DNA of 23,076 nt from an uncultured Blautia sp. Lineage in GTDB: Bacteria > Bacillota > Clostridia > Lachnospirales > Lachnospiraceae. A program made the position numbers and the translations under genes. Of the stretch, positions 16,054-19,020 are shown piece by piece. The DNA is taken from NCBI GenBank assembly GCA_934394595.1, contig CAKRRX010000035.1, forward strand, positions 1 to 23,076, in the 5' to 3' direction. Every line of letters starts with the position of its first letter. The stretch's first letter is position 1. Under the pieces are notes generated by a model. That model made no database searches. It was not told where the DNA came from and was given only the letters and a program-made list of their open reading frames with translations.

Positions 16054-16821
16054 ATGACGGGAAGAAAAGGAATTGTCTGGAAAACTCCGGACATTACAGC
16101 AGATGGTCTGAAGATGTTTGCGTGTATTGTCATGCTGCTTCGGACGATTGGAATTGTGATCGTGGAAAAAGGAATGATCCATCTGGATCAGTATACCCAG
16201 GAGAGCTTGAATCAGGCAATGGCCCGGGATTCCCGTCTTATGACACTTGCAGGAGTGGGGTCTGTGCTGCAGCTGCTGGGCGGTCTTGCCATTCCCATAT
16301 TTGCATTTTTGCTTGTAGAAGGATTCCGTAATACATCCAATTATAAAAAATATCTGCTCACAATGCTTCTTGCAGCGCTTGTGTGTGAAATCCCTTATGA
16401 TCTGGCTATGAGCGGTAAGGTGCTGGATCTGTCCGGTCAGAATGGACTTCTGACTATGTGTATTTGCCTGCTTATGTTGAAATGTATGGACCTTGTAAAG
16501 AATATGCCAGGTTTTTCAGGAAAGCTGGTAAAGGTTCTGATCACATTGGCAGCAGTGCTGTGGACAAGCCTTTTGCGCTGCGAGTACGGACTTTGTACGG
16601 TTCTTCTGACAGCGGTATTTTATGTATTCTATACAAGAAATGTGCTGAAAACCGTTCTTGGTGGTCTGATCAGTATTATGTATGTCACAGGCCCGCTGGC
16701 TTTTTACGGGCTTTGGTGTTACAACGGTGAGAGAAAAGACCGTATCAGTAAATACGTATATTATGCTTTTTACCCAGCCAGTCTTCTGGTACTTGGGATA
16801 GCTGCAAAATTGATATCTTAA
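16054..16821 (+). CDS. TraX-like integral membrane protein
   Basis: A 255-residue protein with about seven to eight hydrophobic helices. The N-terminal TADGLKMFACIVML and the C-terminal CYNGERKDRISKYVYYAFYP match the TraX family, named for the F-plasmid pilin acetyltransferase and widespread in Firmicutes with unknown function. TraX proteins normally have an Asp-His pair after the first LK helix (as in MxIDHIG); here the corresponding stretch reads MLLRTIG, so the pair is missing. It begins six bases after the permease gene with only a weak AAAGG ribosome binding site. Its stop codon lies in the first arm of the four-way-junction element. Membership in a sugar operon suggests a role in acyl-group or envelope chemistry, but this is a guess. 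Confidence 0.75.
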   Translation: MTGRKGIVWKTPDITADGLKMFACIVMLLRTIGIVIVEKGMIHLDQYTQESLNQAMARDSRLMTLAGVGSVLQLLGGLAIPIFAFLLVEGFRNTSNYKKYLLTMLLAALVCEIPYDLAMSGKVLDLSGQNGLLTMCICLLMLKCMDLVKNMPGFSGKLVKVLITLAAVLWTSLLRCEYGLCTVLLTAVFYVFYTRNVLKTVLGGLISIMYVTGPLAFYGLWCYNGERKDRISKYVYYAFYPASLLVLGIAAKLIS

Positions 16822-16940
16822 CCGAATCAAGTAAGTCCCCTGCTGAGGTTGCGAAAAGCAATAAGCAGTGGGTGGGGACTTGCTTGTATCAGGAGGAGTG
16901 CAAGCTCCTTCTGATAAACTGCGGAGCAGTTATTCGGTTA
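16819..16940 (+). ncRNA. Candidate four-way-junction structured RNA element
   Basis: Four stems fit together with almost no unpaired junction bases. Closing stem TAACCGAAT 16819-16827 with ATTCGGTTA 16932-16940: 9 bp, perfect. Arm 1, 16828-16840 with 16874-16886: 13 bp, one G-U, inner helices TGCT/AGCA and TTGC-GAAAA-GCAA. Arm 2, 16888-16898 with 16905-16915: 11 bp, one G-U, loop TGCAAG. Arm 3, AACTGC 16917-16922 with GCAGTT 16926-16931, loop GGA. Linkers are 0, 1, 1 and 0 bases. It is not a tRNA: the stem lengths and the lack of an anticodon arm exclude that. I know of no named class it fits; function is unknown. Confidence 0.6.
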
Positions 16941-16953
16941 TGAGCAAGTAGCG

Positions 16954-16976
16954 AAGCGGATTGCGAATATCCGCTT
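16954..16976 (+). other. Hairpin before the GH42 ribosome binding site
   Basis: AAGCGGAT (16954-16961) pairs perfectly with ATCCGCTT (16969-16976) around TGCGAAT. It lies between the four-way junction and the ribosome binding site TAAGGAG (16985-16991), so it may be part of the same element or influence GH42 translation. No U tract follows. Confidence 0.55.
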
Positions 16977-16998
16977 GATCTGCGTAAGGAGAGACAGT

Positions 16999-19020
16999 AT
17001 GGAATTTAAGACAGAGAAGCTGCTTCACGGCGGCGATTATAATCCTGAACAGTGGCTGAAACGGCCGGATATTCTGGAGAAAGACCTGGATATGCTGGAA
17101 AAAGCCAACTGCAATGTAGTGACACTTGGTGTTTTTTCCTGGTCTACATTAGAGCCAGAAGAAGGGATTTTTCACTTTGAATGGCTCCAGGAAATCATAG
17201 ACAAATTATATAAAAGAGGGATTTCTACTATCCTGGGTACGCCTTCCGGTGCGAGACCGAAATGGATGGCAGATAAATATCCGGAGGTACTTCGGGTAGA
17301 TGAGACCGGACACCGGAACCACTTTGGTTTTCGCCATAATCACTGCTATACCTCCCCTGTGTACAGAGAAAAAGTACATATTATGAATAAAAAACTGGCA
17401 GAGGAAGTAGCGGTACATCCGGGTGTGATTCTTTTGCATATTTCCAATGAATTAGGCGGGGAGTGCCATTGTCCGCTGTGCCAGGAGGCATTTAGAGGAT
17501 GGCTGAAGGAAAAATATCAGACCATTGAGAACCTCAATGATCGCTGGTGTACCACCTTCTGGAGCCATACTTATCAGAATTTTGACCAGATCGAAAGCCC
17601 TTCCAGAATCGGAGAGACACAGCTCCATGGGCTGAATTTGGACTGGAAGCGCTTTGTTACCCATCAGACCGTTGATTTTCTTCGTCAGGAAGTGTCGGCC
17701 TTAAGAGAAGGGGGAAGCGAGCTTCCGGTAACCGCCAATCTGATGCACTTTTTCGGAGGGCTTGATTACTTTAAGCTTGCAAAAGAAATTGATGTGGTTT
17801 CCTGGGATACCTATCCAACCTGGTACAAGAAGCCTCTCATTGATATCGCATATGACAATGGAATGTGCCATGACCTGATGCGTTCGCTGAAAAGAAAGCC
17901 CTTTTTCCAGATGGAATCCTGCCCAACCTCTACCAACTGGCAGAGTGTGAGCAAGCTGAAAAAGCCTGGAATGCTTTTTGCCCAGTCTATGCAAGCAATT
18001 GCCCATGGCAGTGAAGGTGCGCTGTATTTCCAGATCCGGCAGAGCAGAGGCGCTTCTGAGAAATTCCACGGTGCAGTCATCGATCATTATGGTGGAGAGG
18101 ATACCCGGGTATTCCGGGAAGTTTCGGAAGTGGGCGCTGCATTAAAAGAGCTGAAAGAACTGGCTGGAACTACTACCAGAAGCCAGGTTGCCATGATCTA
18201 TGACTGGGACAGCCAGTGGGCAATGGAAGACAGCCAGGGGCCGAGAAACAAAGGGCTTCACTATATGGAGGCCATGCTGAAATATTATCGTGGATTCCGT
18301 AAGCAGGGGCTTAACGTGGATCTGATCGATATGACCTGTGATCTGGATGCCTATAAAATTCTGGCAATGCCTATGGTTTATATGTTCAAGGAAGGGTTTG
18401 CAGAAAAAGTACGTACTTTTGTGGAAAATGGAGGAATTCTTATCACCAGCTACTGGTCCGGAATCGTAGATGATACAGACCGCTGTTACCTGGGTGGAAC
18501 TCCTCACGGCCTTATGGATGTTCTGGGGCTTCGCAGTACAGAGATTGACGGACTTTATGACTGGGAAGAGAATCAGATGGTTCCGGAAACAGGAAATCAG
18601 CTGGGCCTTACAGATACATACATCTGTAAGAATCTGTGTGACTTGGTGGAGCTTCGCGGTGCAAAGCCTCTGATGACTTACGGAAGCGATTTTTACCAGG
18701 GTTATCCCTGCCTTACCGTAAATACCTTTGGAAAGGGAAATGCCTGGTATGTGGCAGCAGATGCAGATGAGAAGTTCTATGCAGATTTCCTTGGAAAAAT
18801 TGTGAAGGACAGCTGCGTTTCCAGTGGTATTTCAGAGGAAATCCCAGATGCCCTGGAGATCACTGTGCGGGAACGTGATGATGTAAAATATTACATTTAC
18901 CAGAATTATGGTACACAGGCAGTAAAAATCCCGGTTCCGGATGGAAAAGTAACCTGGATTTATGGAAATGGACAGGAAGAACTAAAGGTTTACGGACTGG
19001 CAGTGGCAAAAGTGGAATAA
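16999..19020 (+). CDS. GH42 beta-galactosidase
   Basis: A 673-residue enzyme with the three-part GH42 layout: catalytic TIM barrel (about 1-390), a trimerisation/GATase-like domain (about 391-600) and a small beta C-terminal domain. The acid/base is Glu151 (HISNELGG), the nucleophile Glu306 (FQMESCPTS), and the metal-binding cysteines are Cys116, Cys156, Cys158 and Cys161 (CHCPLC). There is no signal peptide, so it hydrolyses imported beta-galactosides (galacto-oligosaccharides or galactan fragments) in the cytoplasm. I set the start at 16999, after TAAGGAG, rather than the in-frame ATG at 16975, which lies in a hairpin arm. Its place after GanPQ-type permeases mirrors the Bacillus gan operon. 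Confidence 0.95.
   Translation: MEFKTEKLLHGGDYNPEQWLKRPDILEKDLDMLEKANCNVVTLGVFSWSTLEPEEGIFHFEWLQEIIDKLYKRGISTILGTPSGARPKWMADKYPEVLRVDETGHRNHFGFRHNHCYTSPVYREKVHIMNKKLAEEVAVHPGVILLHISNELGGECHCPLCQEAFRGWLKEKYQTIENLNDRWCTTFWSHTYQNFDQIESPSRIGETQLHGLNLDWKRFVTHQTVDFLRQEVSALREGGSELPVTANLMHFFGGLDYFKLAKEIDVVSWDTYPTWYKKPLIDIAYDNGMCHDLMRSLKRKPFFQMESCPTSTNWQSVSKLKKPGMLFAQSMQAIAHGSEGALYFQIRQSRGASEKFHGAVIDHYGGEDTRVFREVSEVGAALKELKELAGTTTRSQVAMIYDWDSQWAMEDSQGPRNKGLHYMEAMLKYYRGFRKQGLNVDLIDMTCDLDAYKILAMPMVYMFKEGFAEKVRTFVENGGILITSYWSGIVDDTDRCYLGGTPHGLMDVLGLRSTEIDGLYDWEENQMVPETGNQLGLTDTYICKNLCDLVELRGAKPLMTYGSDFYQGYPCLTVNTFGKGNAWYVAADADEKFYADFLGKIVKDSCVSSGISEEIPDALEITVRERDDVKYYIYQNYGTQAVKIPVPDGKVTWIYGNGQEELKVYGLAVAKVE

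Follow-up and report, generated by a model that had tools for sequence, protein, structure and literature searches.

The locus described here raises the question of what is represented by a strongly folded stretch lying between a TraX-family gene (16054–16821, + strand; Pfam PF05857, E 9.5e-26) and a GH42 beta-galactosidase gene (16999–19020, + strand; Pfam PF02449, E 1.3e-142) of an uncultured Blautia sp., within the 23,076-nucleotide stretch of DNA that was analysed as a whole and is referred to below as the window. A preliminary description had proposed a compact four-way-junction RNA at this position and had offered three readings of it, namely a cis-regulatory RNA, a processed small RNA or a dispersed hairpin-rich repeat. 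In the current study, the folded stretch was found to be a 158-nt mobile DNA repeat which carries no gene and is one of many scattered copies; a presumed local RNA thereby turns out to be a mobile repeat that is abundant in gut bacteria and whose insertion sites are resolved by comparison.

Energy-based folding bore out the compact junction, as positions 16819–16940 reach a minimum free energy of −65 kcal/mol compared to a shuffle mean of −32.3 (z −9.54; none of 200 shuffles as good), and no other 122-nt stretch had a lower energy when both strands of the window were scanned in 15-nt steps. On the + strand, a closing stem of 9 bp pairs TAACCGAAT (16819–16827) with ATTCGGTTA (16932–16940), enclosing arm 1 (16828–16886; 13 bp, 16828–16840/16874–16886, extended by two 5-bp helices), arm 2 (16887–16916; 13 bp, 16887–16899/16904–16916) and arm 3 (16917–16931; 6 bp, 16917–16922/16926–16931). 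The closing stem and all three arms are defined by the fold and by covariation, and arms 1 and 2 also by comparison of copies. The helix lengths proposed earlier hold for the closing stem (9 bp) and for the arms of 13 and 6 bp, and an arm described as 11 bp becomes 13 bp by energy. An 8-bp hairpin 3′ of the junction (AAGCGGAT/ATCCGCTT, 16954–16961/16969–16976) was also present in the computed fold.

Conservation of this fold was assessed over 41 distinct sequences out of 49 copies, two (L101 and L102) having been omitted and six identical rows dropped. Across these, 97.4% of the cells are paired and changes on both sides occur in 12 of 50 pairs, a value reached by none of 500 shuffles and by no slide of one to three columns, it being noted that kinship can inflate shuffle results. 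A MAFFT alignment of 16 divergent copies (A2) was not counted because the closing stem is misaligned in the GAACGCAG and TAACGCAG types. Copies in distant genomes have a closing stem that differs in sequence but still pairs, as TAACCTCAT/ATGAGGTTA, TAACGCAG/CTGCGTTA and TGAACGCAG/CTGCGTTCA. As judged from aligned copies, these data show that the four-way-junction structure is under selection on the + strand and is kept by compensatory changes. The + strand appears to be the folding strand since G-U cells exceed A-C cells (142 versus 25, or 55 versus 24 without the pairs that are mainly G-U); this asymmetry fits RNA or top-strand DNA alike, and the compensatory changes would suit an RNA equally. 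When folded as DNA, the segment gives z values of −9.9 (+) and −9.0 (−). The case carries a general warning, namely that a mobile element can yield a conserved fold with compensatory changes.

In agreement with the earlier remark that the structure matches no nameable class, a search of the whole window against Rfam 15 gave no match at or above the gathering score of any family. Matches to microRNAs (E 0.03–3) and to freshwater-1 (E 3.7) were dismissed as chance.

A functional cis-regulatory or small RNA belonging to the TraX/GH42 locus would account for a strong fold just 5′ of the putative GH42 ribosome binding site (AAGGAGA, 16986–16992, + strand). The locus was compared with relatives. A TraX search returned four loci, the closest of which belongs to Blautia sp. 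MSJ-9 (G001; 75% identity), and the TraX and GH42 genes were seen to adjoin without the element in four genomes (L001/L106 in G001, L002 in G002, L104 in G048 and L105 in G005); two loci with other sequence after TraX (L003, L004) and one genome in which TraX and GH42 are not adjacent (G040) were left out of this count. Since the gene pair exists without the element, a GH42-specific regulator, as had been suggested, is rejected; the absence of the element between the same two genes in four relatives contradicts a conserved function, and elsewhere the element adjoins other genes. An RNA serving this locus is thus highly improbable, and the element at the window locus looks lineage-specific on the sequences compared.

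The suggestion of a dispersed hairpin-rich repeat proved correct. At E≤1, the 158-nt query had at least 41 matches in G001 (40 of 150 candidates scored), including three that are full-length with 94–95% identity; in the genomes of the other three TraX loci the matches were weak and numbered three, two and four (best E 6.8e-4). A genus sample has matches in 28 of its 60 genomes (E≤0.001) and a family sample in 33 of its 299 genomes (E≤1e-8), both samples being those of G001 and including it. The copies are dispersed and have sharp ends, and they are best explained as a family of non-autonomous mobile elements of the Lachnospiraceae. Viruses and plasmids were set aside as carriers: one IMG/VR contig contains the exact 29-base tail pattern, the 11 matching phage records are all unannotated faecal contigs, and the plasmids searched gave no match. 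A second dispersed repeat, starting GGTCTGGAATGAATTTTGGTTACGTTACTGAGAACGGAGTGAACAG, was observed in the left flank of one copy (L073; query 2201–2247) and has many copies in G040, G061, G001 and G005.

The boundaries of the element were deduced from the comparison of copies and from empty sites. Full-length copies have TTAACCGAATCA in common on the left and ATATCCGCTTGA on the right, and just outside these common ends, of 42 copies, 41 have T as the preceding base and 31 have C as the following one. The window copy extends over 16822–16979 (+ strand; CCGAATC...CCGCTTGAT). Comparison of copies shows that its ends, CCGAATC and CCGCTTGAC, do not form an inverted repeat, and the right end itself, CTTGAT (16974–16979), is mostly CTTGAC or ATTGAC in other copies.

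Six of the 24 filled sites whose flanks were searched were compared base by base with empty alleles. At one of these (L068), two genomes have empty alleles of the sequence CCTTTTTAA/TTTGG, the filled allele being CCTTTTTAA[element]TTTGG. At two more (L087, L089), the junctions are again gapless, scattered substitutions being present in the flanks, and a fourth (L071) is gapless against six genomes, a target A having become G in the filled copy. Filled and empty alleles of the fifth (L064) differ by one T, and the sixth (L065) is ambiguous and readable as a 3-bp duplication. Sequences carrying another 19–32 nt at the L068 site (L167, L184, L170) or extra bases at the L065 site (L176, L171) were not taken as clean empty alleles. 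The empty alleles of L068, L071, L087, L089 and L064 contain TTTAA, and this pentanucleotide stands 5′ of 39 of 48 tabulated copies, the other nine differing; some of the 48 copies may go back to a common insertion, so that they do not all count as independent. These alignments of filled and empty sites show a 158-nt unit (16822–16979 in the window) that inserts 3′ of TTTAA, or CTTAA in the window, without target duplication, the junctions being gapless at four of the six sites. Near the L068 site, where other genomes are empty, one locus (L167) carries approximately 20 nt similar to the element's right end, perhaps left behind by an older copy.

In the window, the CTTAA target (16817–16821, + strand) lies outside the element and yet forms the foot of the closing stem, the first three bases of the left strand of the stem being those of the target. 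These same bases are the TAA stop codon of the TraX-family gene (16819–16821). The earlier observation that the stop codon falls within the left strand of the closing stem is therefore accurate; these bases are better understood as part of the insertion target, since TTTAA stands in the empty alleles of other copies, the opening of the structure by TraX translation being a proposal of the preliminary description. The window copy probably inserted at the stop codon of TraX, which was preserved, the GH42 ribosome binding site being left outside the element, and an effect on the GH42 mRNA, if any, would be incidental. In one subfamily, found at TTTGA-type sites, the target-side A is replaced by G, the T of the opposing strand by C and the right-end A by G together; the G is a putative target base, no empty site for such copies having been found in 23 genomes. 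One TTTGA-type element (L251:1221–1540) occurs as two tandem copies with one junction in common, the second being without the left target bases.

Unit sizes range from approximately 73 to 161 nt. A short form of about 73 nt (L024, L030, L034) has both ends and arm 3 and is missing arms 1 and 2; G005 gave 39 matches to this form, many of which are the ends of long copies. The best-matching part in distant genomes, to which the match narrows there, is a conserved right-end module (TATGAGCAAGTAGCGAAGCGGATTGCGAATA, 16939–16969, + strand) that can form an extended hairpin, its stem interrupted by GA/GA and GTA/GGA internal loops. The 8-bp hairpin at 16954–16976 is an alternative to this. Among 69 tails, chosen by their likeness to that of the window, the 8-bp hairpin has at least seven of its eight pairs in 55, the inner extended hairpin is fully paired in 44, and both apply in 33. 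Pair exchanges in the extended hairpin (T-A to C-G in nine tails, C-G to G-C in two), together with two copies (L101, L102) in which it takes the forms CCGGCAA/TTGCCGG and GCCGCAA/TTGCGGC and the 8-bp hairpin is lost, and with a subfamily whose outer helix is perfect, lead us to prefer the extended hairpin, on the tails compared, as the basic right-end structure, although 22 tails keep only the 8-bp form intact. From its sequence, the GGTTA within the right strand of the closing stem is able to pair with the left junction or, with one T-T mismatch, with TATCC of the right end, and this alternation may act as a switch.

Concerning the manner of movement, the insertion of the element at TTTAA without duplication and the hairpins at both of its ends suggest movement of the IS200/IS605 type. 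According to PMC7290912, members of that family lack inverted ends, do not duplicate their target and have a tetra- or pentanucleotide on the 5′ side of the insertion. Hairpins at both ends, together with insertion 3′ of a pentamer without duplication, are likewise described in PMC7290912 and PMC6006769. In the present family, insertion occurs 3′ of a fixed pentanucleotide, duplication is absent at four of six sites and hairpins lie near both ends. We consider it probable, and the best reading of the data, that the element is non-autonomous and that a Y1 (IS200/IS605-type) transposase, acting in trans, moves it in single-stranded form; the comparison of sites shows the insertion signature, and the enzyme is an inference. 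The element would move as a folded single strand, its hairpins being recognised by a Y1 HUH transposase of the IS200/IS605 type supplied in trans, and since TAA, the last bases of the target, pairs with TTA at the foot of the closing stem, the element may read its target by means of its own fold. At the left end, the target abuts the stem, leaving no room for a canonical guide between the left cleavage site and the left hairpin; at the right end, the extended hairpin is preceded on its 5′ side by GGTTA, which is able to pair with the right end. With insertion sites resolved by comparison, the enzyme, the target rule and the effect on neighbouring genes become directly testable.

Strong Y1 genes (E<1e-30) were present in 14 of 15 genomes with at least nine element matches compared to 7 of 45 others (Fisher p 8.6e-8, uncorrected for kinship). 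Other observations count against a Y1 enzyme. No single Y1 type is common to all copy-rich genomes, G009 having only one type and G032 only another, and G007, with 11 element matches, has no Y1 match. A mobiliser was not found: element ends enclosed none of the 30 Y1 loci that were fetched out of 53 matches in nine genomes, the 1.5-kb flanks used being such that the far end of some 2-kb elements may be missed. Pieces of an element near three Y1 loci (L134, L151, L159) are read as separate copies; in L159, approximately 40 nt separate a 54-nt left-end piece (1159–1212) from the terminus of an IS605-type element that encodes a Y1 protein.

Among known systems, the non-autonomous derivatives of IS200/IS605 elements (palindrome-associated transposable elements, PATEs) resemble the present family in having no terminal inverted repeats, no target duplication and no gene, in inserting 3′ of a fixed T-rich pentamer and in bearing hairpins near both ends. 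The element differs from them at its left end, where a multi-arm junction takes target bases into its closing stem, in that no resident IS with the same ends was seen among the Y1 and TnpB loci fetched, and in its many copies per genome, as against the one PATE-like sequence that PMC7290912 reports. Bacterial MITEs such as ERIC, NEMIS, RUP and CIR are 100–200 bp in length, fold stably as RNA and may affect neighbouring mRNAs, and most of them carry TA termini and inverted ends and duplicate their target (PMC2229807). The element is alike in size, in its stable fold and in that it may affect neighbouring mRNAs, but has no inverted ends and, at four of six sites, no duplication. No published description of the family was found in a literature search with subscription papers outside its coverage.

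Dispersed intergenic palindromes with GTAG near a hairpin are also typical of REP/REPIN sequences, and a repeat of this type moved by a domesticated RAYT (TnpA-REP) would explain both the intergenic position of the copies and the GTAG tetranucleotide 5′ of the right-end hairpin, as is described for REPs in PMC3733652 and PMC6006769. The units described here are longer, however, at approximately 73–161 nt with several stems as against a single hairpin of about 20–65 nt, and have sharp ends and a fixed target, and in the extended-stem subfamily GTA is an internal loop inside the hairpin. Long, low-scoring Y1 genes (199–277 aa), which we read as RAYT-like, are present in G006, G014, G029, G034, G042 and G065, but of the five of these genomes that were searched only G029 has element matches. 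No RAYT association was seen among the Y1 loci fetched; none of these 30, a set from which the RAYT-like genes are absent, is flanked by copies on both sides. Movement by a RAYT is judged quite improbable.

TnpB genes were considered in the same manner, and none of 30 loci fetched, out of 64 matches, was enclosed by element ends; one (L205) has a whole divergent copy approximately 290 nt from a TnpB fragment and another (L195) a 38-nt piece. Near-identical TnpB-only elements of approximately 1.6 kb encoding 371 aa, most of which end in GCATGTCAC, are likewise inserted at TTTAA (L203, L208, L211, L216; G005). They were set aside as partners of the element, with which they have only the TTTAA target in common. 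Use of this target in the same genomes would fit movement of the element through RNA, by a retro-type or an RNA-guided route such as an omega-RNA-like transcript used by TnpB, as would the G-U preference and the likeness of the right-end motif to Clostridiales-1 RNA (see below). The ends of the TnpB elements differ from those of the element, G-T wobbles in top-strand DNA could give the same asymmetry and the fold as DNA is equally far beyond shuffles (z −9.9), so that an RNA intermediate is regarded as improbable.

Mobility by a Y1 transposase in trans, which remains the preferred reading, is compatible with a secondary use by the host, in which copies would be kept because their transcript hairpins stabilise or process mRNAs. 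The setting of 21 copies, those within length limits, was examined; 20 lie between open frames and one inside a frame. Where the neighbouring genes are on the same strand, the folded strand is in the sense direction in 10 of 12 copies, in line with such a use. The sample is small, however, convergent or divergent genes flank 8 of the 20 intergenic copies, and the insertion signature would be left unexplained; we consider this use conceivable but somewhat unlikely.

The right-end hairpin offers, in addition, a lead on Clostridiales-1 RNA (RF01699), which is listed among candidate structured RNAs in PMC2864571. Its model scores 20.6 and 17.5 bits in the window, below the gathering score of 48, and 31.2 bits in L245. 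The hairpin motif AUGAGCA-G-AGC...GCGGA-UGCGAAU is common to both, and the remaining architecture differs. Searches of six genomes yielded 17 matches over the cut-off in three of them (12 in G347, four in G040 and one in G005), all three being element-carrying genomes in which these matches are dispersed, and none was found in 14 control genomes. This is a lead and does not amount to membership. It is a speculative and rather unlikely extension that a Lachnospiraceae-wide superfamily of gene-less elements exists in which the choice of target resides in the element's own fold; in such a superfamily, the GGTTA switch, between TAA plus CC and TATCC, could license cutting, and the GA and GTA-GGA hairpin would tie in the Clostridiales-1 ‘RNA’. 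By eye, the dispersed Clostridiales-1 RNA copies of G347 (L284, L289, L293, L297, L300, L302) vary in their outermost stems, which seem to pair as if the flank joined in. In L245, a TwoAYGGAY RNA (RF01731, 46.4 bits, over its cut-off; 1352–1485, − strand) directly adjoins an element of the TAACGCAG subfamily.
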